Position numbers and translations under genes: made by a program. From positions 1-53,958 of the IMG/VR virus record IMGVR_UViG_3300024429_000008: DNA of 53,958 nucleotides; one strand, 5' to 3'. Below are positions 1,354-45,805 of this stretch, piece after piece (positions within the stretch are counted from its first letter, which is position 1; the number at the start of each line of letters is the position of its first letter). Under the pieces are notes generated by a model. It did no database searches and was not told the origin of the DNA. It was given only the letters and a program-made list of their open reading frames with translations. The DNA is from a virus.

Positions 1354-2088
1354 GTGAGAGCCGGTACAGAAGCCTTCACTACCAAAGAAACAGGTCGCAG
1401 AGACAGGCTAAACCTGATCTGGCACCCCCAACGAGGGAAACCTGCTATTTTAGCAGATTATACCAGTGCCACCGATGCTACCCGAATGATTGCTGATCCG
1501 GACATGCTGATTGGAGGGACTAACATCGCCTCTAATACTTCAGCAGCGGCCGTTGAAGGGGGGTTGTTCTTAGCAGTAACGGCTGATGCTACCAACGCCG
1601 TGGCTATCTCCCCTCATACCCTGGCCAACAACAGCATCTGGCAGCAAGTCACCTGGGGAACGGACCAGGAAGTGGAATGGGAAGCCCTCCTCCAGTATGA
1701 TGCGGTTATGACTGATCGACTCTTCAAGTGTGGACTGTGTCTATTGCCTGCAACCGTAGACCTGGGCACGGACAACGACCAGATCGGATGGATGGCCGAG
1801 GACGACGGGGTTCTCGATGTCATCGCTTCTATCAGCAACGCCGACGTGACCATAGCCGGAGTGCAAACTGTAGTGGCTAGTCAGTACATCCACTTCGCCA
1901 TCAAGTTCGACGCTACCGGAGTCGCCCGCACTTACATTGATGGGCGTGAGGTACAAGTGAATGGGTACTACCGAGGCAACGCCGTAGATCTATTCCCCTA
2001 CGTAGCTACGCTGGAGGACACTTCCGCAGGTGCTCACCCTAAGATCAACGTCCTGGGGATGGCCATCAGCCGGGCGATTGGTACATAA
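1354..2088 (+). CDS. LamG-like fibre/appendage paralogue 3
   Basis: The GTG start at 1354 is chosen because AAGGAG lies about 9 bases upstream, right after the previous stop; in-frame codons further upstream would overlap gene 2 heavily. The product is 244 residues. It shares ATRMIADPDML, VTWGTDQEVEWE and KFDATGVARTYIDGREV with its neighbours. An exact copy of the 11-base repeat (1397-1407) is read here as G-R-R-D-R-L, aligning with a related but non-repeat sequence in paralogue 2, so the word arose by substitution and not by insertion at this site. Confidence 0.7.
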   Translation: MRAGTEAFTTKETGRRDRLNLIWHPQRGKPAILADYTSATDATRMIADPDMLIGGTNIASNTSAAAVEGGLFLAVTADATNAVAISPHTLANNSIWQQVTWGTDQEVEWEALLQYDAVMTDRLFKCGLCLLPATVDLGTDNDQIGWMAEDDGVLDVIASISNADVTIAGVQTVVASQYIHFAIKFDATGVARTYIDGREVQVNGYYRGNAVDLFPYVATLEDTSAGAHPKINVLGMAISRAIGT

Positions 2089-2504: not shown

Positions 2505-2734
2505 AGCAAGTTGACTCACTCGTAGCTGCTTTGGTAGGCGGGCTTCTGATGTTCCTAGCCCTGTGGCTGACTGTCCAACCTGTCTCTGCCAAAGAGGTAC
2601 ATGAATACGTCCGCTTAACCGTCGAGCGTCGGCTTGACAACATCGAGGATGGACTGAAAGAACTACGTCAAGGCCAGGTAGAACTGCAAAAGGGACTAGC
2701 TGGAGTGGAGGCTATACTTCTTTCTACCCAGTAG
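2501..2734 (+). CDS. Small exported or membrane-anchored coiled-coil protein
   Basis: The product is 77 residues from a GTG overlapping the previous stop. Residues 8-26 are a hydrophobic segment (LVAALVGGLLMFLALWLTV) followed by QPVSA-KE, a plausible signal peptidase I site (V-S-A). The rest is a charged helix with heptad-like spacing (VERRLDNIEDGLKELRQGQVEL). The cleavage-site residues PVSA are encoded by a copy of the 11-base repeat (2579-2589). It could be a lysis or envelope accessory protein; this is not demonstrated. Confidence 0.65.
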   Translation: MKQVDSLVAALVGGLLMFLALWLTVQPVSAKEVHEYVRLTVERRLDNIEDGLKELRQGQVELQKGLAGVEAILLSTQ

Positions 2735-2754
2735 CAGAGACAGGGGGAGACAAG

Positions 2755-3749: not shown

Positions 3750-3763
3750 GTATGTTATTCGTG

Positions 3764-3819
3764 GGCAGAGACAGGGGGACCCCAGGGGATATTATGGTCC
3801 CCACCCCCCTGTCTCTGCC
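3764..3819 (+). repeat. Perfect 15-bp inverted repeat built on the 11-base word
   Basis: GGCAGAGACAGGGGG (3764-3778) and its exact complement (3805-3819) flank a 26-base loop. Both arms contain the dispersed 11-mer. It lies between the beta-grasp gene and the candidate E2 gene. No U-tract follows, so it is not a typical intrinsic terminator. It could cap or process the mRNA and so set different levels for the modifier and the enzymes. Confidence 0.85.
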
Positions 3820-3849
3820 ATTCTTGATGGGCTAGCTGGAGCAACTACC

Positions 3850-4212: not shown

Positions 4213-4481
4213 GCTGTGATTGTATAAAACGTATTACCTTGCTGGTTGATCGACTCATCGAGTTGGAGGGCCGCGTAGGTATGATAGAGGCCAACTTGCG
4301 AGTAGCGGCGGAGGCTCTAGGCTTCCCGCCTTGGGATGAGGAAGTACATGGGGGAGGCTTTCCAGCGGAGGAGGATGAGGACCTTCCAGAGATAATCGGG
4401 GAAATTGGAGAGGAGTTTCCCTTTCCAGAGCTGGATGAGAATTTCCCTCCGGTGGAGGCAGAACTCGATGAAGAAAACTGA
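4209..4481 (+). CDS. Acidic coiled-coil protein in the ubiquitin-like operon
   Basis: The product is 90 residues. ATG at 4209 overlaps the upstream stop (ATGA) and follows AAGGAGG. Residues 1-35 form a Leu/Ile-rich helix with a C-x-C pair near the start (MSCDCIKRITLL). The remainder is very acidic, with repeated E/D-x-F-P motifs (EFPFPELDENFPPVE). No family recognised. Translational coupling suggests it works with the E1 and E2-like proteins, perhaps as an adaptor. Confidence 0.65.
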   Translation: MSCDCIKRITLLVDRLIELEGRVGMIEANLRVAAEALGFPPWDEEVHGGGFPAEEDEDLPEIIGEIGEEFPFPELDENFPPVEAELDEEN

Positions 4482-5190: not shown

Positions 5191-6215
5191 TGTTACATAC
5201 GTTAGAAGATATTTGGGAAGACCTTGAGGAGCAGCAATCCAAGCCTAGGGTAACGATGGGTTCTCCTCTCGGCGAGGAGCAACCACTCCTTGAATGGAAG
5301 GATTTAGAGAAGTACACCACGGATGAGAAAACCGACCTGACCATAGGCAGGGACAATCGAGTGTACGGAATACGGGGGGATGTTGTACAGTGTTGGGCTC
5401 CATTAGCACCTACGGGACCAGAGCAGGTATATCTGGATTGTGTCCGATGGGGGAATGCACCTCCCCTAGAACACCTGGCCCATCTGTTTGAACATTTCTT
5501 CCAGAAGTATGATCAAGAAGTGATTATGCTAGTCGGCCAGAAATTGAATGGATCAGAGTGGCTGTACTTTGTACCTCCCCAAGTGGGGACGGGGGGAGGG
5601 GTGAAGTGGGATATCCGGGGGGAGGCTGCAAAAGAATTCACTGGCTTGGCTGTATGGATAGGAACGATCCATAGCCACCCTGGAAATTGCACCAGCCCCA
5701 GTACAGTAGACGTTAGCGAGTGGGCTGATCCCTTATGCTCTGGTATCCACATGATACTAGGGAACGATGGGAGTTATACTTATCATGGAGCCATCGTCGG
5801 GAAAACATTCCCCCTGAAGAGCGGGACTCTAGAAGGGGTTATGCCAGCACCGGTATGGTGGCGACAAAGTGGTGGGCGTAGCTTGGGAGAGTTGCTGCGG
5901 ACTCCACCCCCACTACCGCCTCCAACGCCCACTGTTAAGACGGTGGATACGACCGCGAGGCCCTTTCCCCGACTCCTAAGAGACGAGATCCCTCACCAGA
6001 TTACTCAAGACGAACCCGGACTCCCACCCGACTCCTATTCGTCCCTCGCCTGCGACCGGGATGACCTGGATGATTTACGGATCGTGTTCTCCGGGAATGC
6101 GGTTTGGATTATGACCTCTCTGGAATGCAGCGTTTGGATGAGTGAAAATCCCAGCCTCAGCTCCGAGGTAGAGATTCGGACGCTGCGGATTCCCAACGGA
6201 GGAGAGCCATCGTGA
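5190..6215 (+). CDS. JAB/JAMM (MPN) metalloprotease, putative deconjugase
   Basis: The product is 341 residues from ATG 5190, overlapping the E1 stop and preceded by GGAAGG. The JAMM zinc motif is exact: H161-S-H163, seven residues, S171-T-V-D174 (H-x-H-x7-S-x-x-D), following a strand-helix stretch with a candidate catalytic Glu. Known family role: isopeptidase or processing protease acting on ubiquitin-like tails. The N-terminal ~100 residues and a Pro-rich C-terminal region (residues ~235-265) are extensions of unknown function. No NlpC/P60 domain is attached, unlike tail-assembly JAB proteins. Confidence 0.82.
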   Translation: MLHTLEDIWEDLEEQQSKPRVTMGSPLGEEQPLLEWKDLEKYTTDEKTDLTIGRDNRVYGIRGDVVQCWAPLAPTGPEQVYLDCVRWGNAPPLEHLAHLFEHFFQKYDQEVIMLVGQKLNGSEWLYFVPPQVGTGGGVKWDIRGEAAKEFTGLAVWIGTIHSHPGNCTSPSTVDVSEWADPLCSGIHMILGNDGSYTYHGAIVGKTFPLKSGTLEGVMPAPVWWRQSGGRSLGELLRTPPPLPPPTPTVKTVDTTARPFPRLLRDEIPHQITQDEPGLPPDSYSSLACDRDDLDDLRIVFSGNAVWIMTSLECSVWMSENPSLSSEVEIRTLRIPNGGEPS

Positions 6216-7993: not shown

Positions 7994-8536
7994 ATGCAGC
8001 TCCAGTATAATCGGTGTCCTAACGATCCCAACTTGCCAGTAGTCTCCCATGTAGGAATGACCGGTGATGGCAAGGTTGTTGAGGTAGGGCTCGCTGAGAT
8101 AACTAGTGCCCTGTCTCTGTACAGTGCTGCGTGTGTGGTAACTCTGGCAGCAAGGAATGGTATAGTTCCAGATTTCGTTACCCGCGTTGCGATGGCACTA
8201 ACACTTCCAATGAAGGAGGACCCCCATGGATTGTGTCTCCCCACGAAAATACTCATGGAGGCGAGCCTGATCCTGCAAGGACAGAAAATCCTGATGGATG
8301 AAAGGGGTCTCTTGCATACTGATATGGGGAGGCAGGACGGAATAGACCTTTTGAAAGGGTGCTCTCCCCATGTAGAACAGCCACCGTGTTGCAGAGACAG
8401 GCAAAAGATGCTGGAGGCTCTGGAGGATTTGACTAACCAAATGGGGCCTACCTTCGAAGTCGTGGAAGCACATTGTGGTCTAATCGTAGCTGGTTGTTGG
8501 AAGACTGCCCGAACGATTGTCGAATCGGCGGAGTGA
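7994..8536 (+). CDS. Hypothetical protein, last gene of the ubiquitin-like operon
   Basis: The product is 180 residues. ATG 7994 is chosen with GGAG 9 bases upstream; ATG 7985 would sit directly against the site. A 13-codon frame starting at 7969 could be a leader. Contains a hydrophobic helical segment (LYSAACVVTLAA) and several Cys (GCSPHVEQPPCC). No family recognised. Two repeat copies lie inside: exact at 8391-8401, one mismatch at 8110-8120. Followed by the 22-bp repeat at 8564. Confidence 0.65.
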   Translation: MQLQYNRCPNDPNLPVVSHVGMTGDGKVVEVGLAEITSALSLYSAACVVTLAARNGIVPDFVTRVAMALTLPMKEDPHGLCLPTKILMEASLILQGQKILMDERGLLHTDMGRQDGIDLLKGCSPHVEQPPCCRDRQKMLEALEDLTNQMGPTFEVVEAHCGLIVAGCWKTARTIVESAE

Positions 8537-9081: not shown

Positions 9082-9146
9082 GCAGAGACAGGCAGGGGAG
9101 CGGCCTAAGACTATACCGGATCCGAACCGCCCCCCCCTGTTTCTGC
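9082..9146 (+). repeat. Imperfect inverted pair of the 11-base word (hairpin)
   Basis: GCAGAGACAGG (9082-9092) and CCTGTTTCTGC (9136-9146, one mismatch) are in inverted orientation. The pairing extends inward through GGGG…CCCC and GCGG…CCGC. It sits right after the stop at 9062. No strong U-tract follows, so it may be a weak terminator or an mRNA 3'-end stabiliser. Same architecture as 3764-3819. Confidence 0.7.
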
Positions 9147-10371: not shown

Positions 10372-10588
10372 ATTTGCACTACTGGGAGTGGGGATAGGGC
10401 TGCTGATCGTGTGTGCGTGGGTAGGGTGGACCAGACAACTACCATGGGCAGAGACAGGCAAGGTCGCACCAGCAGTGTATACGTCGCACGTGCACCATTA
10501 TGAGGCTGGGCTGTCGGTGGCTGAGCGGGCACGGGTCGAGAGGGTGGAAAGGCTGGCGGAGAAGTACAGCATGTTTAAGGACGACTGA
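10325..10588 (+). CDS. Single-pass membrane protein
   Basis: The product is 87 residues: a short basic N-terminus, a transmembrane segment at about 16-34 (FALLGVGIGLLIVCAWVGW), then a charged helical tail (VAERARVERVERLAEKY). An exact repeat copy (10448-10458) is read as A-E-T-G just after the membrane segment. Function unknown; the topology fits an envelope-acting accessory protein. Confidence 0.6.
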   Translation: MEVNLKKPAPPVHWFRFALLGVGIGLLIVCAWVGWTRQLPWAETGKVAPAVYTSHVHHYEAGLSVAERARVERVERLAEKYSMFKDD

Positions 10589-11313: not shown

Positions 11314-11769
11314 TCTGTTTAACTTACCTGATCCGTACAACTTGACCAGTCAGCACAGTTAGTACAATCGGTACAACCAGTGCAGGCAGGCAAGCTGCCA
11401 TTTTGGCAGTGTCTGTTTCTGCTAGTTGAGACTGAGTCTCATTATCAATTAGGTGGTGGCCAGGGGTCCTGGAGGAATGATGCCTGAAAGCATCATTGGG
11501 CCCTGGGGATGATGCAAAATAACCACACACCCCTACAATCGTTACATCTTACCCACCTTAACACCCCAAATCATGCAGAGACAGGCGAATTTGCCTAGGC
11601 GTAGCTGAATATGTGCCCTAACGCCACCCAACATGGGCAATACTACCCACCATGGGCAATACTACCCACATAAGTGTGTCTTTAGGCTGCCCCCCCGTCG
11701 GCCCCTGGAGTAAAGTGGTGGTGAGGTTAATAGAACCTCCCATCTTTAACCAACTTTTCACGAAATTCC
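11314..11769 (+). other. Structured intergenic region (no gene seen)
   Basis: About 455 bases without a supported gene. Contents in order: a 15-base element at 11385-11399 repeated at 12326-12340; a degenerate repeat word at 11412-11422; a cruciform-like structure, CCAGGG (11460-11465)…AATGATGC (11476-11483)/GCATCATT (11490-11497)…CCCTGG (11501-11506); an exact 11-mer at 11575-11585; a 19-bp tandem repeat at 11632-11669; and a small hairpin GAGGTT/AACCTC at 11723-11739. It is a candidate replication origin or regulatory region; no origin protein is identified. Confidence 0.6.
11632..11669 (+). repeat. Two tandem 19-bp iteron-like repeats
   Basis: CATGGGCAATACTACCCAC occurs twice head-to-tail without a gap (11632-11650 and 11651-11669). 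Each unit has an internal dyad, GTGGGT/ACCCAC-like (TGGG…CCCA). This is typical of a protein-binding iteron or operator pair. Confidence 0.85.
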
Positions 11770-11798
11770 TTGACTTATCCCCCCAGAAGTGCTATACT
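11770..11798 (+). promoter_or_regulatory. Strong sigma70-like promoter with the 11-mer at the start site
   Basis: TTGACT (11770-11775), a 17-base spacer, TATACT (11793-11798). An exact GCAGAGACAGG lies at 11802-11812, covering the expected transcription start. It drives the membrane-protein gene at 11834. Confidence 0.8.
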
Positions 11799-11833
11799 TT
11801 CGCAGAGACAGGTTTTTAGGAGTACCAAGAACC

Positions 11834-12325: not shown

Positions 12326-12362
12326 GGCAGGCAAGCTGCCTCGCCCTAAAGCCTGTCTCTGC
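12326..12362 (+). repeat. Composite repeat element with the 11-mer
   Basis: A 15-base block (12326-12340, GGCAGGCAAGCTGCC) identical to 11385-11399 is followed by TCGCCCT and then an exact CCTGTCTCTGC (12352-12362). A diverged copy stands at 13265-13291 (GGCAAGCCCCCTCGC then CCTGTCTCTGC). The block contains the dyad GGCA…TGCC and can form a small hairpin. Confidence 0.75.
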
Positions 12363-13250: not shown

Positions 13251-13309
13251 TGGTATAGCTCGGGAGGCAAGCCCCCTCGCCCTGTCTCTGCAACCGTAGG
13301 AGAAAATAT

Positions 13310-13705: not shown

Positions 13706-13735
13706 TATGCCCTGTCTCTGCCTAAAGGAGCTGAT

Positions 13736-15151
13736 ATGGCGAAGGACAAAGAAGATGCTCGTGAACTCTTACTGAAGGTAGTAAGGCAGACCTGGGGAAG
13801 AGGATTCTACCATCTCCGCTACTGGAGGGGAGACTTCTGGGAGTGGGAATCGAGTGAGTGGGAAGGAAAGGGGACTGCCTACCATCGCATTACGGAGGTA
13901 GAAGTAGGAGGGTGCTTCCAGAAGGCTTTGGTAAAGTTGGGTTACCTTATCACGTCACCTCATCAGGTAGGGGATCTCATAAAGATCGCCCAGCGGGAGT
14001 TTCTCATCCCAGATAGTAAGGACATGCCCGTGATGATAGAGGAACACGATCAATACAAACCCTACCCGGGGTTTGTGGCCTTCCACGACGGCATTATGAA
14101 TACGAGTTTCCTAGGGAGGGTCGTAGAAGGGAGTAACATGCAGGACCACACCCCATTGTGGTTCTCGGATCAGTGCCTGGATTTCTCTTATAGTTCCAAG
14201 GCGACCTACCCCAAGTGGGACAAGTTCTTGGAGGAAGTGTTGCCGGACCCGGAGTTGCAGAAGCTCCTCCAGATGTGGTTCGGGTATACGCTGTTCCATG
14301 ATACATCCCAGCAGAAGTTCCTCCTGGTAGTGGGGCCTGCTGCTACGGGGAAGTCCGTCATGGCCAAGATCATGGGGAAGTTGGCTGGACCCGGCGGGGT
14401 CTCTGCAATCCCCCTTAAGGATTTCGGGAAGCCCTTTTCTCTATACCAGACCTTGGGGAGGAAGATCAACATTGATCCAGATATGTCTGAGCTGGATAAA
14501 GTTGATGAGGGCATTCTGAGGTCCTACGTAGGAGGGGACCTGATGAAGGTGGAGAGGAAGTACAAAGATCCTATAATGGTCTACCCCTCAGCCCGGCTGG
14601 TGTTCTGTACGAATGACCTGCCCCATATTGCAGATAGATCAAATGCGACGTGGCGGAGGATGATCCTACTCCCCTTCGACCAGGTAGTCCCAGTAGAGAA
14701 GAGGAATCCTCACCTGGTAGAAGAACTAAGTAAGGAACTATCTGGGATCTGGAATTGGGCTTGGGAAGGTCTCCAAGAGTTGCAGAGACAGGGCAGGTTC
14801 CTGGAGCCTAAGAGGATGCAGGAGGCTATCGCGGAGTACAAGACCGAGGTGAGCCCCGTCAGACAGTGGCTAGAGGAGAAATGTAAAGTAGGGGCGGATC
14901 ATTGGATCCGATGTACTCAGGCGTATGCTTTATTCGTGAGCTATATTTCAGCCCGTGGTTATAAGACCCCATCCCAGAAGTCATTCGGTCGGTCACTGGC
15001 CGCCGCCGTGGGGGAAACGATGACCCGGGAGGGAACGGTTATCCGCAAGCAGCGAAGGATCGGCGGGCTGGTGAAGTGGTACTACCACGGGTTGTATGTC
15101 GAACCGGAGGACCCACAAGACATAATCGTTAAGGTAACCGAAAACCGTTAG
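13736..15151 (+). CDS. SF3 (D5/P4-type) replicative helicase
   Basis: The product is 471 residues; ATG 13736 follows AAAGGAG. Walker A GPAATGKS at about residues 199-206, Walker B-like NIDPDMSE at about 246-253, motif C VFCTND at about 287-292, and an Arg finger in ATWRRM at about 303-308. This is the classic superfamily 3 set of the D5/P4 helicases. The N-terminal ~170 residues resemble the D5_N region; no primase active site is visible. It works with the DNA polymerase encoded far away on the other strand. A winged-helix-like C-terminus (QWLEEKCKVGADHWIRCTQAYALFVSY) is typical of the family. Confidence 0.85.
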   Translation: MAKDKEDARELLLKVVRQTWGRGFYHLRYWRGDFWEWESSEWEGKGTAYHRITEVEVGGCFQKALVKLGYLITSPHQVGDLIKIAQREFLIPDSKDMPVMIEEHDQYKPYPGFVAFHDGIMNTSFLGRVVEGSNMQDHTPLWFSDQCLDFSYSSKATYPKWDKFLEEVLPDPELQKLLQMWFGYTLFHDTSQQKFLLVVGPAATGKSVMAKIMGKLAGPGGVSAIPLKDFGKPFSLYQTLGRKINIDPDMSELDKVDEGILRSYVGGDLMKVERKYKDPIMVYPSARLVFCTNDLPHIADRSNATWRRMILLPFDQVVPVEKRNPHLVEELSKELSGIWNWAWEGLQELQRQGRFLEPKRMQEAIAEYKTEVSPVRQWLEEKCKVGADHWIRCTQAYALFVSYISARGYKTPSQKSFGRSLAAAVGETMTREGTVIRKQRRIGGLVKWYYHGLYVEPEDPQDIIVKVTENR

Positions 15152-15646: not shown

Positions 15647-16640
15647 TGAGATCATCCGAGCAGTTGGCTCCGGGGAGCTAGGCCCGATGGTCCGCCTTTT
15701 GGATTTCTTTTCCCCAGATGCGGTGTCGGAGGCCATGGACGAGGCCAACTGGGACACCCAGGAGATGATTGAGCAACTAGCAGAGATTGCTAGGGATGCT
15801 ACCAACAACACGGCCCGCGAGCGGATGGCCGCTATGAAGATGCTGACCGATCAAGGTAAGCAAGCCTTAGCCCTTCATGGCCACATACAGAGGATCACTG
15901 CGGAGGCTACCCAAGAGGAGGACGGTGTCAAGAAAACCCTGACAGCTGATAGTCTGGAACTATTACGGATGGGATCAGCTCGGACAATGACCACCCTGGA
16001 ATTGTTAGCAGCAAGCCAGGGTACCACGGAGCTTATAGACGTAGAGGCAGGGCCAAGCCTGTCTCTGCTAAAGGAGAAATCAAGTGACCCCCCAGCAGGA
16101 AGCAGCATTCAATCAAATGTCGAGCGTTGGTCCGGAGAGTCCGGAGGCGTCGGCTTCGGCGGTGGAGGGACTGGAGTTGTCCCGTCAGTACATGACTCAG
16201 AACGGCCCAACTCAGCCGACCCACCGTCGTCCTCACAAGACAATGACAAAGGCACAGTACGAGGAGGAAAAGATGAACAGGAACCCCGAGTCCCCAACCA
16301 ACCTGGATGCGGACAGCCGAGTCAAGAATCTGGAAGTCCAGGTAGCCGGGATCAACGAGAACATCACGAAGTTGGCCAATATAGTGACGCAGGCCATCAT
16401 ACAGAGACAGGAGGAGAAGCCGACGACGGAGAAGGTTCCGTCGCCGTTCCTGAGAGGAGGACCACTCCCTACACCCCTGGATCTGCCCGCCGAAGGGCTA
16501 GACGAATCGCCACCGATCCCCACGGTGACCCACCCGACGGTGGCACTAGAGGGACCCCTGGAGGAGTGGAAGGCAGCCCCGGAATCCCCACCCGGCCTGC
16601 CGACGGAGCCGATGACGGAAACTGGTCCCTCCGAGAATGA
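15639..16640 (+). CDS. Putative terminase-associated protein with long dual-coding tail
   Basis: The GTG start at 15639 is chosen for GGAGG 7 bases upstream. The product is 333 residues. Residues 1-150 are helical (PDAVSEAMDEANWDTQEMIEQLAEIARD) and could be a small terminase-like protein by position. From residue ~150 the frame becomes Gly/Pro/Ser/Asp-rich low complexity and overlaps the 16084 gene for 557 bases in another frame. Either the tail is truly translated, or the frame is open by composition. It contains a repeat copy at 16058-16068. Confidence 0.55.
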   Translation: MGNEIIRAVGSGELGPMVRLLDFFSPDAVSEAMDEANWDTQEMIEQLAEIARDATNNTARERMAAMKMLTDQGKQALALHGHIQRITAEATQEEDGVKKTLTADSLELLRMGSARTMTTLELLAASQGTTELIDVEAGPSLSLLKEKSSDPPAGSSIQSNVERWSGESGGVGFGGGGTGVVPSVHDSERPNSADPPSSSQDNDKGTVRGGKDEQEPRVPNQPGCGQPSQESGSPGSRDQREHHEVGQYSDAGHHTETGGEADDGEGSVAVPERRTTPYTPGSARRRARRIATDPHGDPPDGGTRGTPGGVEGSPGIPTRPADGADDGNWSLRE

Positions 16641-18918: not shown

Positions 18919-18965
18919 GAATCCGGGACATACCCAGCCTGTCTCTGCAAAAGAGGAGAACTAAG

Positions 18966-22739: not shown

Positions 22740-22804
22740 TTTCTTCCCTACGTAATAGACAAGTACAAGGGTAGCAGAGTCCTGTCTCTGCAAAAGAGGG
22801 TAAT

Positions 22805-24387: not shown

Positions 24388-24420
24388 GCAGAGACAGGGG
24401 GGTGGGGATGGAAGGGCAGA

Positions 24421-24837
24421 ATGCCAGCTACGGTCCTAGATCCAACAGTGCACCTCATAAAAAATACTCCTGTCGCCAAGTTTTTTCGCCGCAGGCTCAA
24501 AGATCCAGACATAATGACGTTCTGGCACGCAGAGACAGGACAGTGGATCCTGGCCTACTGGCTCCGTCGGGGGGTCGTGGATGAGATCGAGGATTTGGGA
24601 GCGAACTTCGAGCTGGTAACGGATGATCTCGTGGGGATGATCGTGGGGTGCTACGGTCACGTAGACCTCGCCCGGAAGAAGAAGCGTATCCTGGCCAAGG
24701 AAGCAGCTCAGTTACAGCGGCAAACAGAGGCTGTCCTGGAGAATCAGGAGAAGTGGGACTGGTTGAAGAAGCGGACGAAAGACAAGGCCCCCTTGCCTTA
24801 CACGTTCCAAGCCTCCCCGGTGGAAAAAGGATACTGA
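24421..24837 (+). CDS. Hypothetical post-capsid protein
   Basis: The product is 138 residues; GGAAGGG lies upstream. Basic helical C-terminal half (ARKKKRILAKEAAQLQRQTEAVLENQEKWDWLKKRTKDK). An exact repeat copy (24529-24539) is read as HAETGQW. Position suggests a capsid-associated or connector protein. Confidence 0.6.
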   Translation: MPATVLDPTVHLIKNTPVAKFFRRRLKDPDIMTFWHAETGQWILAYWLRRGVVDEIEDLGANFELVTDDLVGMIVGCYGHVDLARKKKRILAKEAAQLQRQTEAVLENQEKWDWLKKRTKDKAPLPYTFQASPVEKGY

Positions 24838-24883
24838 TATGAATCCAGAGGCACCTCCTGTCTCTGCTAAAGGAGAATTTGAT

Positions 24884-28955: not shown

Positions 28956-29186
28956 ATGCAACACCAAAACAAGGAGACAGCTCCTCAGAATCGGCTGACA
29001 TGGGTACGAGACCCACTGGGAGGTCAGACTCAGGTTTTCCACAAAGATCTGCAAGGTACTCCTCTCTTTGAGAACCCTAACGAATGCGATCCTAGCCTGT
29101 CTCTGCAAGAAGGAAAATTGAGTGAATCCATCTCTGGGGTACAGGTAAGGCCAGAGGACAGAACCTATGGGGGACGCGATGCCTGA
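28956..29186 (+). CDS. Hypothetical small protein
   Basis: The product is 76 residues; GAGGGGG lies upstream. Polar, Gln/Glu-rich. Ends in an overlap with the start of the tail nozzle gene. An exact repeat copy (29096-29106) is read as L-S-L-Q. It may be only a leader region, but the frame is well positioned. Confidence 0.45.
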   Translation: MQHQNKETAPQNRLTWVRDPLGGQTQVFHKDLQGTPLFENPNECDPSLSLQEGKLSESISGVQVRPEDRTYGGRDA

Positions 29187-32016
29187 GCGAGATACTGACA
29201 ACAATCGGTCCTGGGTGATCCCGACTGTGTATCCAGGGGCGGATTATCGACTCAATCAGGCTGCTGTGAGTTCTCCCCAGTTGGTGGAAGCTATCGGCAC
29301 GGATGGTCGATTCGTGGGAGCCATCCGGCCTTTCCCTGGTTTCGCTGATGATACAGTGCACAAGGTGCCCCACCCCGAGTCGGGACGCACCATCTCCAGC
29401 ATTGCCAATATCTTCTTCGTGAAGTATGCTTCCATCCAGAAGGGTCTCACGTCGGACAAGCTCAGTGGAATTGTGTTGCTGGGAGACAATCAGGAAGAAC
29501 CAGTTACGGGCAAAGCCATTTATTTTGCTTACTATGACACATCGGATGATTCCTATGATGTTGTGATGTTGGAGGACTTTAAGGATTGGGACGACTTCAC
29601 TCTGGATACCTTTACTGAATACGATGTTACTTCCCATGGGCAGTACATCTATTTTGTGGCATCCGGTGACACGACGGCGGTGGATGATAACTACAGTACA
29701 AAGGAACCTCCTTACAACCGGGCTTATTTCTGGGATTGGAAGATCAACTCCTGGGACAAGTATAACTCGGGATTTAATGTGAGGATGTTGGGCATCGCCT
29801 CCCCTCGATTCCTGAAAACTCCCATAAACCTAAGTCGAGATGTCTTTCGGGTTGGGGGGATCGCTGCCGCTATAACTCTAGGTAGTACTACGGTGACTCT
29901 GACTACAGATGCTCCTGATCTCTCGGGGGTAGTGCCGGGAGACTATATTTACCTCCATCAGGGAGAGGATGACCTGGAAGTTCAGATTTCTACAGTGGAT
30001 AATGTCACTAAGGTCATTGTTTTAGTTGGGTCATCTGGTATATGGACTTCAACCACCGCAGAATGGAGGATTATCAAAGAGGATGGAACAGAGAGCAGTG
30101 ATGCCTTTGTGGCTTACGTGCAGACAGGAGGCCCTTTCACTATGCCCAAAGGCAATTACACCTTTGGGCTGGAATTAATCAGCCGCAAACACCGACTGAG
30201 GTCCTCTCTTCGGATGTATACTCTCTTCGCAACTGAGGTAGCAAATACATATATTGCCCTCAGAGTGTATTATCTGGGAGAGACCTATACAAGCCATGGA
30301 GGGGACCCCTCCCAGCATTATGATACTAGGGGAGGAGGTCACACTGGAGAAGCTGGGACAGCGATCCTGCATTGGGGCATTCCCCACACAGATGGATTCC
30401 GTATTTGGCGATCCCCCGGGGATGGAGCAGAGGCAGCGGGTGGACGAGAGAAATATGACCCAGTGGGACAATTGTACCTCACGGATCCCTACATAGAGAA
30501 GGTATTACGAGCGGATCCGGCATCGGAGTATGCTCAGGGGTCTAGAATGTTCATAGATCATAGTACCACTCGTGGGGCAAGTCCTCGCATGGGGCATAGG
30601 AGTCCTTATCTCTGGGATGGGGTAACTGCCAGCAATGTTGAGAAAGTTGGGGCCCTGCAAGCTCGACCTGCTTATCAACCTTGGGATGATTCATTTGGTC
30701 CGGCTCCCCGGATGAAACGTCTTGCGGCTTACTCGGGGTTGCTATTGGGTATTACGGATATTGCTGTTCCTACAGACTTCCAAAACTGGGATGAGGTACA
30801 GGATCGACCTGAAGAATTGTGTTGGTCCCATACTGGTCGGAGTGAACCAGAGAACTTCCCAGTGTTCAATCGCTATGCTTTAGATGGAGCAGGGGAAACT
30901 TTCTTGGGTTTGGAACCGGCTGGAGATCACCTGTTTGCCTTGACTGGAGGCTCTGTATACAAGGTTCTGAGGTCCGGTAGCATAATATCCCTCAACCGGG
31001 TCCTGTCAGGGGTAGGAGTAGTTAATCGCTTCGCAGCTATAGGAGTGGGAAACACCTTATTCCTTGTAACAAAAGCAGGAGTCAAGTCCATTGATGGCAA
31101 CTCCGGGGCGATAAAATCCATCTCAGCTCTGGATCGAATCATAATCAATGATGGAGAATGGAATGACTCATTGGATGCTATCCACTTGGAGTATGATGCT
31201 ACCATTGGAGCCCTGGTTTTCCTGAACACTACCAAGCACGAGTGCATCTTCCTATGGGAATCCACTGGAGCCATCACCCGGCTGGTGGATGCTCCTTGGT
31301 CTTTCTTGGCCGCAGGCCCAGACGTAGCGACCTCGGGAGCCCAGAGAGTCTATTTCGTAATGGATGATGGTAACATCCACACTATAGACGCAGACCGGGA
31401 AATGGGCAAACGGTCCATGTGTGGAACAGGGGCCGCCGAGACCGTCAATGGTACCTGCACGACGGCATCCATCACTCAGATTATCGACTCAGGGGCAACA
31501 TTCCCTGCCAACTGCGTGGGACACAAAGTATACATCCTGAATGGAACAGATGAAGGAGTCGCTACAACCGTCACAGCCCGAAATAGTGATACCACCTTGA
31601 CCGTATCCGGACTCACAGAAGCAACGACCACGGATACCCGATATGCTGTGGCATCCATAGTGACCGAGTTGGTATTTCCTCAATTAGTGGGATACAGAGG
31701 AGAGCACGATCCATTCACTCGTAAGATAGTAAAGTCCATATCGGCTGCCTTCTCGGACCTATCAGGAGAGACGGACCCAGATTCCGATGACAACGCGGTG
31801 CTGCGATTCGGAGTATGGCGGGACGGCTCCCGCTTGGTAGAGACAGAAGCTGATCTCAACATCTTGCCAGATAAGTGCTTGGCCCAGGTGAGCTGTGGGG
31901 ATGCCCGAGTGTATCCTAGCTTGAGATTTCTCAGCGGGAACATAGATTTTGAACTCCAGGCTCTGATGGTGGAAGGGATAATCTCAGGGAACGTGGCCCA
32001 AAGCCGGATCACTTGA
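29167..32016 (+). CDS. Tail nozzle/tubular-B-like protein
   Basis: The product is 949 residues from ATG 29167 (ATG 29179 is an alternative). N-terminal lead-in of the type seen in podovirus nozzle proteins (YRLNQAAVSSPQLVEAIGTDGRFVGAIRPFPGF), then many beta-propeller-like repeats (LFALTGGSVYKVLRSGSI; NTLFLVTKAGVKSIDGNSGAI; ALVFLNTTKHECIFLWESTGAI). Its size and position after the connector fit. The stop codon is part of the next promoter's -35. Confidence 0.65.
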   Translation: MGDAMPERDTDNNRSWVIPTVYPGADYRLNQAAVSSPQLVEAIGTDGRFVGAIRPFPGFADDTVHKVPHPESGRTISSIANIFFVKYASIQKGLTSDKLSGIVLLGDNQEEPVTGKAIYFAYYDTSDDSYDVVMLEDFKDWDDFTLDTFTEYDVTSHGQYIYFVASGDTTAVDDNYSTKEPPYNRAYFWDWKINSWDKYNSGFNVRMLGIASPRFLKTPINLSRDVFRVGGIAAAITLGSTTVTLTTDAPDLSGVVPGDYIYLHQGEDDLEVQISTVDNVTKVIVLVGSSGIWTSTTAEWRIIKEDGTESSDAFVAYVQTGGPFTMPKGNYTFGLELISRKHRLRSSLRMYTLFATEVANTYIALRVYYLGETYTSHGGDPSQHYDTRGGGHTGEAGTAILHWGIPHTDGFRIWRSPGDGAEAAGGREKYDPVGQLYLTDPYIEKVLRADPASEYAQGSRMFIDHSTTRGASPRMGHRSPYLWDGVTASNVEKVGALQARPAYQPWDDSFGPAPRMKRLAAYSGLLLGITDIAVPTDFQNWDEVQDRPEELCWSHTGRSEPENFPVFNRYALDGAGETFLGLEPAGDHLFALTGGSVYKVLRSGSIISLNRVLSGVGVVNRFAAIGVGNTLFLVTKAGVKSIDGNSGAIKSISALDRIIINDGEWNDSLDAIHLEYDATIGALVFLNTTKHECIFLWESTGAITRLVDAPWSFLAAGPDVATSGAQRVYFVMDDGNIHTIDADREMGKRSMCGTGAAETVNGTCTTASITQIIDSGATFPANCVGHKVYILNGTDEGVATTVTARNSDTTLTVSGLTEATTTDTRYAVASIVTELVFPQLVGYRGEHDPFTRKIVKSISAAFSDLSGETDPDSDDNAVLRFGVWRDGSRLVETEADLNILPDKCLAQVSCGDARVYPSLRFLSGNIDFELQALMVEGIISGNVAQSRIT

Positions 32017-32041
32017 CTTCGGGCCCTGTCTCTGCTATAAT
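32013..32041 (+). promoter_or_regulatory. Consensus promoter with the 11-mer inside its spacer
   Basis: TTGACT (32013-32018), a 17-base spacer, TATAAT (32036-32041). The last 11 spacer bases are exactly CCTGTCTCTGC (32025-32035), abutting the -10. A protein bound to the repeat here would directly block or remodel RNA polymerase. The -35 overlaps the stop of the nozzle gene. Drives the internal virion protein genes. Confidence 0.85.
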
Positions 32042-32054
32042 GTAAGGGTATATC

Positions 32055-33406: not shown

Positions 33407-35584
33407 ATGGCAAATCGTCAAATGAGTTCTCCAGTTCAACCCATCTCTCGGGAGGCCATGAGTTCTCGAAGAAGAGGTGGAGGAGGTCCCTCTGGGGCTC
33501 AGATGGCTCAACAAGCAATGTCTAGCTTCGCTGCTGACCAACAGAGGGCCATGAGCCAATTTATGAATAGAGCTGGACAAGTTCAGCAGAGACAGGGGGA
33601 GGACCTCGGTCAGCAGATGACTGATGCCATGAATCGGATCATCGACCGGCAGGATGTACGTGCTCAAAGGGAGGAATCCAGGCAGTGGCAACTTGAGGAT
33701 CGGGATTTCCAGGCCAAACACTCGGAACAGTTACTCCGACTCCAGGACCAGATGGCGGGTGATGCCGTGAATCTCGCCCGACGAGGTAATGACATTCGGA
33801 AAGGTGGTCTGGAGCTCGTTAATCAGATAAAGCTTAATCTCAGTCGAGACAAGGAAAAACTGGCGGCCTCGGCGAGATACATAGCTGATGAGAAAGCAAA
33901 GGGGAGTTTTACTGCCCGAGGAGAGGAAGGTCTGGTTGACTACAAAAGATTGACACAGTTGCAGAAATCTGCCGAAGCCTTATACGAGGATCAATTCTAC
34001 TCTCCCTATGGCTTGGAGGTTGGAGCATGGGTAATGGAGATCGAAGACCAAATGAGGAGGGGAGAAGACTATCCGGACATACGCCGTGTGGGGATCGAGA
34101 AACTAAAGATGTCAGAGCGGGTGGCCGCCCGGCTTCCAGAGGGACATCAGCTTCTTCCGACTCTTAGTGACGAGCAGTTTCTGGACCTGAAAAGAGGAGG
34201 TGGATACCCTTCTGATGGGACGTGGGGTAAGAGCTCAGATGACCCAACGACCTTTGCCAACTTACTGAGTCCTCAGTCTGCGAGTGAGATCCTGAGAGAT
34301 GAACTGGATTGGGCCCAACTGGGTACCCGGGAAGCCCAGACGGCATACGTACAACGGGGCGTGCAGGCGACCATCCGACAGAGGGACGATCTGAATGTGG
34401 CTTGGAAGCATGAGGCTCGGATTGCGGCACTTGCCGAGAAACGTATACCCCAAGCTATAGGCCGCGGACTCCAGTCATTACGTTTCAAATTGACGGAAGG
34501 TGATCCAGACCAGGATATGGTCGGGACTTTCATTGATGAAGTTGTTAAGTCCGGCCTAGGCCCAGATAGTGCACCCTTAATCGGACACGTCGCAGAGTGG
34601 TTGAAGCTAGAGGACAAAGTAGTAGACACGGAAGAAGAACAGGCCGTGTTAATGCCTGTCTTGGCCCAATATGAGGCCATGAAGAGCTTGTTGGTTCCGG
34701 TCATGGAGACTCAGCCTGGAGTGGAAGGGGATCCTATGAAGCCCATGATTGCACAGTTTGTGAAAGACCTCACGGCTCCGGGGGCCTATACGGGGTGGTG
34801 GGGAAAAGAGCGGACTCCTGAATTCGGGATCATACAGCGTCTCTTAACAGCGGATCAACCCCCATTGGTGGCTGGTAAACCTCGTAAGTGGGGTATGGTA
34901 CACGGCCGAGCAGCCATTATGCCCGGAGGTGCGAAGGCGGGAGAGTGGATGGAAGACACAAAGGTGGAACTGGAACAGGCCGTGCGGCGGCAACTGGTGG
35001 ACGGGGCCGTCTTGGAGTTGGATAGGAGGATTGGTATTCTAGAGTCCCAGCCATACCCTACTGCCGTCCGCACGCTACGAGCTACCAATTCTCGCAAACT
35101 AGACCGCCTCGTTCCGCAAGTTAACGATATAGCGGCCATTGAGGCCGACATACGAACCGGGATAAGTACCGAAGAGGGGTGGGAAGAAGCACGCGAGCGG
35201 GGAGAGGAATATTTCCGGGGCATTAGAGGTCCAGCTCAAGCCCTGGCGTCCCTCCTAGATCAGCATCCATCATCGGCGACTGTAGTGTCCAACTTCCTAA
35301 CTGGTAAGGGTAGTTCTCCAGTGTATGATGACAACGGCCTGGCATTGCTGAAACTCCTGGAACCCTACAATGACCGATGGACAAGCCGGATTGCAGACAT
35401 AACTGAGAAGCAACGCAGACAGGCCATCGAAGCTGCGGGGCCTGTAGGACCCCAGCAGAAGCCTCCCCCGGGCCCCAGTGCCGGTCCCTCTGTCTCTGCT
35501 ACTTCACAACAGTGGGGTGGAGACCAACTAGCAGGAGATGATTGGAGTTTGGGTAGCTTGCCAAATATAGAGGATAGACGATAA
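33407..35584 (+). CDS. Large internal virion-like protein
   Basis: The product is 725 residues from ATG 33407. Gln/Arg-rich helical protein (FMNRAGQVQQRQGEDLGQQMTDAMNRIIDRQ) with extended coiled regions. No enzyme motif recognised. One exact repeat copy (33586-33596, read QQRQGE) and one near match (35489-35499) are inside. TAATG coupling to the next gene. Confidence 0.65.
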   Translation: MANRQMSSPVQPISREAMSSRRRGGGGPSGAQMAQQAMSSFAADQQRAMSQFMNRAGQVQQRQGEDLGQQMTDAMNRIIDRQDVRAQREESRQWQLEDRDFQAKHSEQLLRLQDQMAGDAVNLARRGNDIRKGGLELVNQIKLNLSRDKEKLAASARYIADEKAKGSFTARGEEGLVDYKRLTQLQKSAEALYEDQFYSPYGLEVGAWVMEIEDQMRRGEDYPDIRRVGIEKLKMSERVAARLPEGHQLLPTLSDEQFLDLKRGGGYPSDGTWGKSSDDPTTFANLLSPQSASEILRDELDWAQLGTREAQTAYVQRGVQATIRQRDDLNVAWKHEARIAALAEKRIPQAIGRGLQSLRFKLTEGDPDQDMVGTFIDEVVKSGLGPDSAPLIGHVAEWLKLEDKVVDTEEEQAVLMPVLAQYEAMKSLLVPVMETQPGVEGDPMKPMIAQFVKDLTAPGAYTGWWGKERTPEFGIIQRLLTADQPPLVAGKPRKWGMVHGRAAIMPGGAKAGEWMEDTKVELEQAVRRQLVDGAVLELDRRIGILESQPYPTAVRTLRATNSRKLDRLVPQVNDIAAIEADIRTGISTEEGWEEARERGEEYFRGIRGPAQALASLLDQHPSSATVVSNFLTGKGSSPVYDDNGLALLKLLEPYNDRWTSRIADITEKQRRQAIEAAGPVGPQQKPPPGPSAGPSVSATSQQWGGDQLAGDDWSLGSLPNIEDRR

Positions 35585-36031: not shown

Positions 36032-37327
36032 ATGGGGACGTATGAACCAATAGATGTTGCCCGTGGAGCTGCGGGAATGGGGCCACAAGCGATCCCCGCA
36101 GCGGAGATAATGCCCGCCGCCCTCGCCGGTGCTGGGGGAGCCCTACCCGGAGCGGAAGTTGGGGCTATGACCCTCAATATTGAACAACCCATGATGGACG
36201 CGGCGGAGTGGTACGAGGTCTGGATGGGGCGAGTAAGTGTTGAGGAGAGGAAGGAGATACTGAAGCGGATCATGGTAGAGGAAGGAGTCTCCGAGGAGTG
36301 GCTAAAGAGATTCGATCAGACTGGGAAGAAGTTACTCCGAGGTGGTCGATCCAATGCTATGAGGCTCACCCGTGGCCTGAGTCAGGCCCAGAAGGCAGCT
36401 TATACCCTCAATTGGGATCTCGCCCAACGATTCCGTGGCAAAGGGGGTATCCCAGTAGCAACCCACGACGCCTACGCCAAGAAGATCCTGTCTCTGCTGA
36501 GGAAGACTCCTGGTGTACCCAAGGAGTACCTGGCTTCACTAGGGAAGCTGACCCCAGAGGCCCTCCGGAAAGCTGGACCTTTGCAGGCCCTTAGCACCTT
36601 AGAGACAGCCCGCCCCAACACTGCCGTTGGGAGCATATGGAGATGGTTTCTCCAAGGTCGAGAGATTGGGAAGCCCCCCGAGCGTCTCGCCAAGGAAACC
36701 CGAGATGTTTTGGGTCAGTTGTTAGGTGAAGCCCCCGAAGTAGCAGAGACAGGGGCACCAGCTCCAGCCAAGACGAAAGTGGGTCGAGCAATGCAGAAGG
36801 TGGGGGAGTTGGGTAAGAAGGCTACTCGCCGTGTTTCTGCTGGACAGGGTCTACCTCCCTCAAGTCCAGCAGCCGTGGGAGCCCTACGGGGGGCTGGTGT
36901 TAAGGGTATGGGTCGGGCAGCGATGGGTCTGGCGAAGATGGGGGGTCTCGGCCCACTTGTCGGGATGGCCGCGTTGGCTCATACGGCCCACGGGGCTATG
37001 ACGGAAGGCCATTATAAGGCTCGGGATATGTATGAAGCCTGGTCGAAGGGGCAAGGGATGGCTAACCCATCTGAGTCCCTATTGCGGGACTTCCTCAACA
37101 AGAAGGACAACATCTCTAGGCGGCGTGCCATGCTCCAGAAAGATCCTGAGATGCTTCAGAAAGTCGTCCAGGCTATCGCGGAGAGTGGACCCCAGAGTCC
37201 TTATACGGCTAGCGAGATACCTTTGGGGCAGGTGGCTCAAGGACCTGGTCGGGGTCAAGGCCGAGGGAACACAGAGGATCTCGATGCTATCTTAGGAGCG
37301 TTCTTGTCACAACTTGGGGAGGTATAG
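36032..37327 (+). CDS. Internal virion-like protein
   Basis: The product is 431 residues from ATG 36032 (AAGGGGAGAGAT upstream). Ala/Gly-rich N-terminal segment, then basic helices. A Gly/Met-rich stretch (VGALRGAGVKGMGRAAMGLAKMGGLGPLVGMAALAH) at about 290-325 could insert in membranes. Exact repeat copies are at 36487-36497 (LSLLR) and 36743-36753 (AETGAP). Confidence 0.6.
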   Translation: MGTYEPIDVARGAAGMGPQAIPAAEIMPAALAGAGGALPGAEVGAMTLNIEQPMMDAAEWYEVWMGRVSVEERKEILKRIMVEEGVSEEWLKRFDQTGKKLLRGGRSNAMRLTRGLSQAQKAAYTLNWDLAQRFRGKGGIPVATHDAYAKKILSLLRKTPGVPKEYLASLGKLTPEALRKAGPLQALSTLETARPNTAVGSIWRWFLQGREIGKPPERLAKETRDVLGQLLGEAPEVAETGAPAPAKTKVGRAMQKVGELGKKATRRVSAGQGLPPSSPAAVGALRGAGVKGMGRAAMGLAKMGGLGPLVGMAALAHTAHGAMTEGHYKARDMYEAWSKGQGMANPSESLLRDFLNKKDNISRRRAMLQKDPEMLQKVVQAIAESGPQSPYTASEIPLGQVAQGPGRGQGRGNTEDLDAILGAFLSQLGEV

Positions 37328-40920: not shown

Positions 40921-41412
40921 CTAAGAGTTCTCTTCTATCACTCGCCTACCTCGTGGTGTCAACTCGAAGCAGAGACAGGATCGGTTCCCAGCTACCACCT
41001 TCTCAGGCAACGAGCGAATCCAACCCTGGTCTCGCAGTCGGGACATCAATGAGGACAGACTCATCTGTTCAAGACGGAATTTGGTGGCCAATCTCGATAC
41101 AGGCTGGGGTCCATTCCGCAATTCGTCCATGATCGTCTTGGTACGTCCGCCGTATGAATAGGTGGGCTGCCCATTTTGCCACACGGGTACGACACCACCG
41201 TACTCTTGACCCACCCATACTATGACCTTCCGGCCCTTGGGGCTCTTCCGTCGGGTCTGGCTATCCAGAATCAACTCGTCTTTGCAGAGCCGGGTGAAGC
41301 AAGGGTACACGGTCTGAGGCAAGTTGCCTGTCTCTGCCACTGCTTCAAATGCTGTTAAGCCCTTGGGTCCTCGAGCCTGGATCATTTGCAGTACCCTTTT
41401 CTCAACCCCCAT
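40921..41412 (-). CDS. Winged-helix DNA-binding protein
   Basis: The product is 163 residues with two probable winged-helix units: residues 1-65 (VLQMIQARGPKGLTAFEAVAETGNLPQTVYPCFTRLCKDELILDS…) and 90-160 (IMDELRNGPQPVSRLATKFRLEQMSLSSLMSRLRDQGWIRS…). It could be a transcription regulator, and is one candidate to bind the 11-base repeat. Two exact repeat copies lie in its own gene (40969 and 41327). It starts inside the end of the groES-like gene. Confidence 0.65.
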   Translation of the reverse strand: MGVEKRVLQMIQARGPKGLTAFEAVAETGNLPQTVYPCFTRLCKDELILDSQTRRKSPKGRKVIVWVGQEYGGVVPVWQNGQPTYSYGGRTKTIMDELRNGPQPVSRLATKFRLEQMSLSSLMSRLRDQGWIRSLPEKVVAGNRSCLCFELTPRGRRVIEENS

Positions 41413-41701
41413 CAGGGACCTCCCTCTCCGTGAAGACTATCATAACGTCTTCCTCCTGCATGACTAGCACAAGTTCATCAGCTATGCACAATGTTGTGAA
41501 ACCATAGTTCAAGAAAACGATCTCGTCCCCGACTTTCAGGGTTTGCACATCAGGACCCGCAATCAGGACGGTCCCAGTCTGTGTGGGTGTCCGAGCCTGG
41601 TCCGGGATCACAATGCCTCCTGCAGATACAGCTTCGGGGTCATCCCGCCTCACCAGGATTCGGTCAGCCAAGGGCTGGGGGTACTTCGTTATCTCGCTCA
41701 T
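41402..41701 (-). CDS. groES: GroES-like co-chaperonin
   Basis: The product is 99 residues. PLADRILVRRDD…SAGGIVIPDQA…TGTVLIAGPDVQTLKVGDEIVF … EEDVMIV follows the Cpn10 pattern from end to end, including the mobile-loop region (AGGIVIP). Phage GroES proteins replace or adapt the host co-chaperonin for capsid folding. No GroEL is encoded here. Confidence 0.88.
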   Translation of the reverse strand: MSEITKYPQPLADRILVRRDDPEAVSAGGIVIPDQARTPTQTGTVLIAGPDVQTLKVGDEIVFLNYGFTTLCIADELVLVMQEEDVMIVFTEREVPDGG

Positions 41702-42680: not shown

Positions 42681-42709
42681 TTACCCACCCCTCGCCTCCC
42701 TGTCTCTGC

Positions 42710-43183: not shown

Positions 43184-44073
43184 TTCTTTTCTCCAGTAAG
43201 TTCTTGGACAGCTGTCTCATACGCCTGAGACAAGGATGCCCAACCTCCTATTTTAGGTACAACGGTCTTATCAGGGAAGGGAACTCGGATCTTAACGTCA
43301 TTGGTTGTTTCCCCTTTCCAAACTCCTCCGGGGATAGTCCTTAGAACCCTTATCACTTCTTTCTTTGTTTCGCCTGGGATCTCAACGATTTTTCCCAATA
43401 CTGCCTTCTTGATTCCAGGTTCCACCCAAGTCCTCGAGGCGAATTCCATGAACAGCATGTGCTCGCACTCCCGACGAATGGCAATGGCGAATGAATCCGA
43501 AACAGCCAAGGACTGGATTATCTTTGTTTCCCCTCCAACCTGCTTCGTCTTAGGAGTCACATGGGCCAGCATCGTCCAACCAAGTCCGGCTCGATGAGCA
43601 CTGTCTAGGATACCAAAGACCTCCTTTCGCACGATGGTGTAGGCATTACCATTCCCATCTTTGTACTCCAAAGGGTCATCGATATTGTGGTTCAGGCAGA
43701 AGTCTCGCAGGAAGATATCAATGAGCTTGTCAATGGTATCAATGCCCAGCATCTCTATGTCCGTCTTGCCACTACGCTTACGCCCGATGATCTTCTCTGC
43801 CATTTCCCTGTAGGCAGCGGCTTGTTTCCCTGGCGGGACAGACTTGGGAACCACGTAAACACCTGCTTGGGGATCATCCACCGTGTTACCTCCACCCTCT
43901 GTGTCCAGGATGAATGCACGTGGATTGCTGTGCAGGATAGTGGACTTACCACAACCTGGTCTACCGACGAAAACATAGCGTCCCTCGTTTGCAGAGACAG
44001 GGGCGAAACCCTGGTGGACTCCCGGCATGGCCAAAAGGTCCTTAGCTAGAGGGCTAGTGATGGTACTACTCAT
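43180..44073 (-). CDS. Sak4-like RecA-fold recombination ATPase
   Basis: The product is 297 residues. Walker A GRPGCGKST at about residues 37-45, an AFILDTEGGG strand at about 52-61, Walker B-like EMLGIDTIDKL at about 106-116. This is the AAA_24/Sak4 single-strand annealing-associated ATPase pattern. Partners are likely the ssDNA-binding protein downstream and the nuclease upstream. An exact repeat copy (43991-44001) is read as APVSANE. Confidence 0.75.
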   Translation of the reverse strand: MSSTITSPLAKDLLAMPGVHQGFAPVSANEGRYVFVGRPGCGKSTILHSNPRAFILDTEGGGNTVDDPQAGVYVVPKSVPPGKQAAAYREMAEKIIGRKRSGKTDIEMLGIDTIDKLIDIFLRDFCLNHNIDDPLEYKDGNGNAYTIVRKEVFGILDSAHRAGLGWTMLAHVTPKTKQVGGETKIIQSLAVSDSFAIAIRRECEHMLFMEFASRTWVEPGIKKAVLGKIVEIPGETKKEVIRVLRTIPGGVWKGETTNDVKIRVPFPDKTVVPKIGGWASLSQAYETAVQELTGEKK

Positions 44074-45276: not shown

Positions 45277-45805
45277 CTTTTTGTTTTTCCTTCCAAAATC
45301 TTTCTGTGTGACATTCTCGGCATATCCGAACCTCCCAAACGACGCCCCGTACTTCCTGTGTGCGAAGCAATTGGGCAGAAGAACAACCACAACCGGGGCA
45401 GTTGTCCCTCGCTCTATTTTTAGGCTCGGTTTTGTCGGGAGTCAAGTTTTTTCTGAAAAATTCCCTCTGCTGTCCTCGGTCGTCCCACTTGAAAGGTTCT
45501 CTCTCTTGAAAGTACATGATGGCCATGGCATTAAAGACGATTGCAGCGAGGTGATCCTCGTCGTCCTCTCCCATGACGAACTGCTGTAAGTGGCGATGAA
45601 GGCTGGACAAGAATCGGGTAAAGGGCATACCCTTGGCCCAGTTCCAGTCCCCATAGTGCTCTGCACCCTTGGTGTAGAGATCTGCTACCCTTCGCAGAGA
45701 CAGGGCAGGGATCAATTCATAGCGGGGCTTCCCTTCTTGGCTATCCCGGTGGGCTCCGGAAGTGAATGTCTCCTTCTCCCCTGATTGTTTTAGCTGATAA
45801 TCCAT
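45269..45805 (-). CDS. dATP/dGTP diphosphohydrolase-like protein with zinc ribbon
   Basis: The product is 178 residues. GKPRYELIPALSLRRVADLYTKGAEHYGDWNWAKGMPFTRFLSSLHRHL…GEDDEDHLAAIVFNAMAIMYF is the DUF5664/MazZ-type N-terminal family (dATP/dGTP diphosphohydrolase). A C-terminal zinc ribbon (CPGCG…CRECH, residues ~135-168) is fused. It may shape the nucleotide pool or regulate synthesis. No PurZ homologue is seen, so a modified 2-aminoadenine genome is not supported. Confidence 0.75.
   Translation of the reverse strand: MDYQLKQSGEKETFTSGAHRDSQEGKPRYELIPALSLRRVADLYTKGAEHYGDWNWAKGMPFTRFLSSLHRHLQQFVMGEDDEDHLAAIVFNAMAIMYFQEREPFKWDDRGQQREFFRKNLTPDKTEPKNRARDNCPGCGCSSAQLLRTQEVRGVVWEVRICRECHTERFWKEKQKDA

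Follow-up and report, generated by a model that had tools for sequence, protein, structure and literature searches.

Dispersed, lineage-specific words as putative operator sites, one within a promoter spacer, in a family of uncultivated viruses of bacteria

The window analysed here is a 53,958-base record of an uncultivated virus of bacteria, and it carries 36 exact copies of the word CCTGTCTCTGC, one of which occupies the spacer of a conserved promoter at 32013. We consider it reasonably probable that these words are operators of a phage-encoded binding protein and that the copy at 32013 serves repression of a genuine promoter. Related genomes iterate words of their own, and the findings suggest protein binding on a genome-wide scale that could govern promoters. 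Dispersed short phage repeats are known in few groups, and for some of these (Corndog, TLS) their function is open. The present family offers six or more distinct words, sites that stay in place and a recurring promoter-word module, making the binder and its specificity code directly testable.

The window encodes a large terminase, a DNA polymerase, a DUF5906/D5-like protein and an AAA_24 protein. Gene calls were made by a simple script, which missed at least one gene. Three nearby genes at 3516-6215 resemble a ubiquitin-like conjugation set, consisting of a small protein with a possible ubiquitin-like fold (judged by eye), a ThiF/E1-like protein (Pfam E 0.007, below the cut-off) and a JAB-like protein (E 4e-5, just below the cut-off). 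A GroES-like chaperonin gene lies at 41402-41701 (Pfam Cpn10, 59.8 bits). No near DNA relative of the window was found in the phage collection, and a search for hosts or prophages by terminase alignment in genome contigs returned none. Relatives were found via terminase and polymerase, and are treated here as clade 1, in which the terminase of the window is 71-74% identical to that of the other genomes, and clade 2, in which it is about 33% identical.

CCTGTCTCTGC is the commonest 11-mer of the window, with 17 exact copies on the + strand and 19 on the - strand where 0.04 matches are expected from shuffles; allowing up to one mismatch gives 48 matches vs 1.4 expected. Half of the exact copies (18/36) are noncoding (P=6e-8). 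Its G-rich orientation, GCAGAGACAGG, has no dyad symmetry and is not a palindrome, and its flanks are not conserved. At 3765-3818 two inverted words are separated by 32 bp and adjoined by runs of G and of C, so a transcript of this stretch could pair. The coordinates of all copies and of the other features are collected in Table 1.

Table 1. Features of the window, in order of position
Feature	Position	Strand	Remark
Word copy	1397..1407	-	
Word copy	2579..2589	+	
Word copy	2734..2744	-	
Word copy	3765..3775	-	inverted pair with 3808
Word copy	3808..3818	+	inverted pair with 3765
Word copy	8391..8401	-	
Word copy	9082..9092	-	
Word copy	10448..10458	-	
Word copy	11575..11585	-	
Third promoter TTGACT-N17-TATACT	11770..11798	+	
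Word copy	11802..11812	-	3 bp after -10 of third promoter
Word copy	12352..12362	+	
Word copy	13281..13291	+	called start 18 bp on
Word copy	13711..13721	+	called start 14 bp on
Word copy	14782..14792	-	
Candidate A, 135 aa, probable helix-turn-helix	15239..15646	+	putative binder
Word copy	16058..16068	+	called start 15 bp on
Word copy	18938..18948	+	called start 17 bp on
Word copy	22781..22791	+	called start 13 bp on
Word copy	24388..24398	-	
Word copy	24529..24539	-	
Word copy	24857..24867	+	
Word copy	29096..29106	+	
Upstream ORF, 949 aa	29167..32016	+	53% identical in G001/G003; stop codon overlaps -35
-35 hexamer TTGACT	32013..32018	+	also at orthologous junction of G001, G003, G007, G008
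17-bp spacer TCGGGCCCTGTCTCTGC	32019..32035	+	four clade-1 relatives share its length but not its sequence
Word copy CCTGTCTCTGC	32025..32035	+	11 bases abutting -10
-10 hexamer TATAAT	32036..32041	+	TATAAT or TACAAT in relatives
Downstream ORF, 449 aa	32055..33404	+	weak matches in G001 and G003
Word copy	33586..33596	-	
Word copy	36487..36497	+	
Word copy	36743..36753	-	
Candidate B, 163 aa, PadR/MarR-like winged helix	40921..41412	-	possibly a second winged helix; putative binder
Word copy	40969..40979	-	in winged-helix gene 40921-41412
Word copy	41327..41337	+	in winged-helix gene 40921-41412
Word copy	42699..42709	+	
Word copy	43991..44001	-	
Word copy	45694..45704	-	
Word copy	48477..48487	-	
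Word copy	48663..48673	+	
Word copy	51430..51440	+	
Second promoter TTGACT-N17-TATACT	52042..52070	+	promoter-like sequence at same junction in relatives
Word copy	52077..52087	-	just downstream of second promoter
Hairpin and T-run, intrinsic-terminator-like	52089..52136	+	directly after word; MFE -31.9 kcal/mol, z -4.4
Word copy	52137..52147	-	directly after T-run
Word copy	52925..52935	+	

The first-pass annotation had described a repeat word in the spacer of a near-consensus promoter at 32013-32041, filling exactly the 11 spacer bases that adjoin the -10 hexamer, and direct reading of the letters confirms both points: the + strand reads TTGACT-N17-TATAAT, and the spacer ends in CCTGTCTCTGC. 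Measured against the sigma-70 type (a TTGACA-like and a TATAAT-like hexamer with 16-18 bp between them), this site matches 11 of the 12 consensus bases with a 17-bp spacer. At the orthologous junction TTGACT-N17-TATAAT is found in three clade-1 relatives (G001, G003 and G008) and TTGACT-N17-TACAAT in a fourth (G007), so that the promoter is kept in 5/5 clade-1 genomes having the junction, that is, the window and the four relatives with data. Clade-2 genomes carry TTGACA-type promoters at the end of the same gene, the homologue of the upstream ORF. The hexamers and the distance between them have been retained even though most of the spacer sequence has not. This is good evidence of a functional promoter, and on these grounds we take it to be, in all likelihood, an authentic promoter of the host sigma-70 type that would serve the gene called at 32055. 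A start at 32048 would give only a 7-nt leader before that ATG. The ATG lies 13-17 nt past the -10 hexamer at this junction in 5/5 clade-1 genomes, which would make for leaders of about 6-10 nt, near leaderless.

The place of the word differs between these orthologous promoters. It lies in the spacer in the window only, G003 and G008 have their own words 2-3 bases upstream of the -35 hexamer, and in G001 and G007 the own word is absent from the promoter. Judged from these alignments, the word is no constant element of the 32013 promoter.

The association of words with promoters was assessed in 11 genomes, a strict promoter being TTGAC[AT] followed after 16-18 bp by at least 5/6 of the -10 bases. 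Words lie near strict promoters 15 times vs 4.8 expected, a number reached in 0/5000 circular shifts; this count is to be read with the promoter rules having been chosen after data inspection, with orthologous sites not being independent, and with circular shifts leaving a shared preference for intergenic DNA uncontrolled. Clade-2 promoter cores contain 6 words vs 0.99 expected (P=0.0004), and those of clade 1 contain 1 vs 0.65 expected, which is chance, with the wider clade-1 promoter association amounting to 7 vs 1.89 expected (P=0.002). In genomes of the CTGCGGAGG lineage, promoter spacers repeatedly contain the word, in one orientation or the other, ahead of unrelated genes. A search of 2.9 million viral contigs with the clade-2 composite pattern of -35, word and -10 returned 11 distinct sites, 10 of which are in word-dense contigs of the window's family, with several unrelated downstream genes and both word orientations; the same pattern gave 12 matches in genome contigs, with no word enrichment. 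By eye, from translations, the clade-2 spacer-word promoters at L130:5707 and L125:957 stand ahead of DNA methyltransferase-like genes.

These results alter the weight of the earlier argument. The spacer position at 32013 had been put forward as the strongest single argument for a regulatory role, and it does not bear that weight, because orthologues carry the word upstream of the -35 hexamer or not at all, because overlap with clade-1 promoter cores is at chance, and because most word copies in relatives are inside genes, far from promoters. Support for the regulatory role comes from other grounds, namely the conserved promoter, the enrichment of words near promoters, the recurrence of spacer words in clade 2 and the divergent region described below. 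It had also been held that occupancy must affect RNA polymerase, a wording that presumes a binding protein which is itself putative.

Every genome examined iterates its own word (Table 2), the types including ACCGGGAGAG, TCGGGAGAGAG, GTGGGTGAGA, CTGCGGAGG and CTGCGGGGC. Words reach 40 copies per about 55 kb, and their number is steady in most near-complete genomes. The window's word is absent from the relatives or has only a few one-mismatch matches there, which rules out a word inherited as a fixed sequence. The word plus AGGAG occurs in 79 viral contigs; each has one copy in the stretch read, and for this reason they look like chance matches.

Table 2. Words of the window and its relatives, in the G-rich orientation, with counts of exact matches
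Genome	Word	Copies
Window	GCAGAGACAGG	36
G001 (40 kb, shorter record)	ACCGGGAGAG	15
G003	ACCGGGAGAG, usually AACCGGGAGAGT	31
G008	GCCGGGAGAG	29
G007	ATCGGGAGAG, usually then AGT	17
G009 (22 kb, shorter record)	TGTGGGTGAGAT	10
G004 / G005 / G006 / G011	CTGCGGAGG	35 / 36 / 36 / 40
G010	CTGCGGGGC	29

Across genomes the two strands are used about equally, which argues for a site acting at the DNA level; within genes, 86 words point one way and 63 the other (sum over six genomes). Most copies in relatives are inside genes, and those of clade 2 follow the coding fraction. Between G004 and G005, 20/27 aligned words are kept perfectly vs 2.9 expected from GC-matched k-mers, and between G001 and G003 6/15 are kept vs 0.7 expected, so that retention in place is 7-10 times that of control k-mers, pointing to selection on the word sites. 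Spacing is near random, regularity not being significant in most genomes. The word-bearing junctions common to the window and its relatives are, as a set, not significant; the junction at 52156 is a striking exception among them, singled out afterwards.

The divergent region at 52042-52147 comprises a second promoter, two words and an intrinsic-terminator-like hairpin. All five clade-1 genomes (5/5) have their own word upstream of the divergent-region gene, followed by G-rich/C-rich hairpin sequence, and the order of promoter, word and hairpin is kept in 5/5 though the word sequence differs. Folding supports the hairpin in 4/5 of them; the fifth, G008, is weak, the stretch folded being incomplete.

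Two putative binders were considered. Candidate A was found in clade 1 where the region is present in the record, with 40-45% identity between the window and the others, and a similarly placed protein in clade 2 is its likely counterpart. The clade-1 and clade-2 sets align weakly (hhalign E 0.27, or 0.008 once the L126 intermediate is added), so gene order is the main basis for their homology. In the model of the clade-2 protein (pLDDT 71.9), helices and strands follow the order of a winged helix; against the PDB it had no match below E 0.001, partial matches including BldC and Pukovnik Xis, and candidate A matched no family in Pfam or PHROG. Its helix region varies between genomes with different words. 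Candidate B was found only in clade 1. It is made less likely as the binder by its helix segments, which hardly change from the window to relatives whose words differ; the quality of its structure model was too low for use (mean pLDDT 48.7). Candidate A thus appears to be the better of the two. For these two candidates, known phage repressor families gave no match.

We propose that CCTGTCTCTGC is one of about 36 dispersed operator-type sites for a phage-encoded, sequence-specific DNA-binding protein. A protein on the spacer copy at 32013 would most likely block RNA polymerase binding or promoter opening, and so repress the promoter, while the promoter-hairpin copy in the divergent region and the copies within genes may be further operators or roadblocks. 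Protein binding, the encoding of the protein by the phage and repression as the effect are what we infer from the findings above. Against the operator reading stands the location of most relatives' copies inside genes, where an operator has no obvious role. A broader possibility, which we regard as rather doubtful, is an orientation-independent word system whose sequence has been replaced in concert between lineages with the sites staying put, and which serves promoters, also from within the spacer, together with a non-transcriptional task carried out through the in-gene copies.

Other readings give the words a different part in transcription or none. Antitermination or polymerase modification would have a protein load on polymerase at the word and let it pass a terminator behind the promoter. 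Lambda Q acts in this way at a DNA element located within a promoter spacer, and the spacer words at 32013 and in clade 2 fit such a scheme, as does the divergent region of five clade-1 genomes, where a word, always on the same strand, separates the promoter from the terminator-like hairpin. We nevertheless hold it to be quite unlikely: most words are distant from any promoter or terminator, and they occupy both strands; their association with simple terminators in general is weak (4 vs 1.2 expected, P=0.03), and no Q-like protein was found among the proteins scanned. That a common word merely fell by coincidence into a conserved promoter with a freely varying spacer would account for the 2/4 clade-1 relatives without a word at the 32013 promoter and the 2/4 with one outside the spacer, for the chance level of core overlap in clade 1, and for a window in which words are enriched in noncoding DNA anyway. 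It leaves the own words of G003 and G008 just upstream of the same -35 hexamer and the significant wider association in clade 1 unaccounted for, and is in our view very improbable.

Sites for recombination or replication, Chi-like or otherwise, that a phage or host enzyme reads and that overlap promoters incidentally would suit words that are G-rich on one strand, non-palindromic, dispersed on both strands with close to random spacing and mostly coding in relatives, and an exonuclease and a polymerase are common to both clades. Such sites do not predict the promoter enrichment, the composite promoter-word module or the kept order of promoter, word and hairpin, and known Chi sites are shorter than 9-11 bp, which also counts against this distinctly improbable reading. 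Sites for genome organisation (partition, compaction or packaging), bound by a dispersed-site DNA-binding protein, would agree with the steady word number and with the encoding of candidate A close to the terminase genes; no ParB-like family was found among the window proteins scanned, promoter enrichment is again not predicted, and we think this explanation highly unlikely.

Several known phage repeats resemble the present words in part. SPBRE of SPbeta, a repeated promoter-region element first proposed from sequence, was later shown to be the site of the master repressor MrpR; it spans 15 bp and occurs in about ten promoter regions, and the fold of MrpR is that of a tyrosine recombinase (PMC10516654). 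The window's family too has a repeated element, part of whose copies lie in phage promoter regions; its words show promoter enrichment, outnumber SPBRE several-fold, and for the most part lie elsewhere. The T1-like phage TLS has about 20 copies of a conserved 21-nt repeat, whose function is unknown, mostly intergenic and upstream of genes and pointing along transcription (PMC11447400); the words share with it the many copies of a short repeat, but are without orientation and, in relatives, mostly in genes. The 17-bp repeats of Cluster O (Corndog), also of unknown function, exceed 30 copies per genome, with about 1/3 within genes and no meaningful orientation, and are one sequence across the cluster, with dyad symmetry of 7 bp around a 3-bp centre (PMC4351075). 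More than 30 dispersed copies without orientation are likewise found here, whereas the word of the window lacks symmetry and the sequence changes from lineage to lineage.

Closest are the stoperators of Cluster A mycobacteriophages (L5, Bxb1, Trixie), the likeness being one of working principle, not of membership. Each genome has more than 20 of these short, asymmetric sites, a number of them at promoters; they lie in short intergenic gaps, mostly in one orientation with respect to transcription, and have a sequence particular to each subcluster that tracks relatedness (PMC6550527, PMC9283540). Stoperators work with a cognate two-domain immunity repressor and repress both initiation and elongation. 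Unlike them, the words of the window have no predominant orientation when this is tested, and are noncoding in half of the cases in the window and mostly coding in relatives. Two putative helix-turn-helix candidates accompany the words, and no repressor homologous to those of Cluster A was found. As in Cluster A, at least 20 near-identical asymmetric sites occur per genome (36 in the window and similar numbers in most relatives), and the site sequence differs by lineage. If the words regulate transcription without regard to orientation, they extend the stoperator idea, and if the in-gene copies do something else, they represent a new role for such sites.
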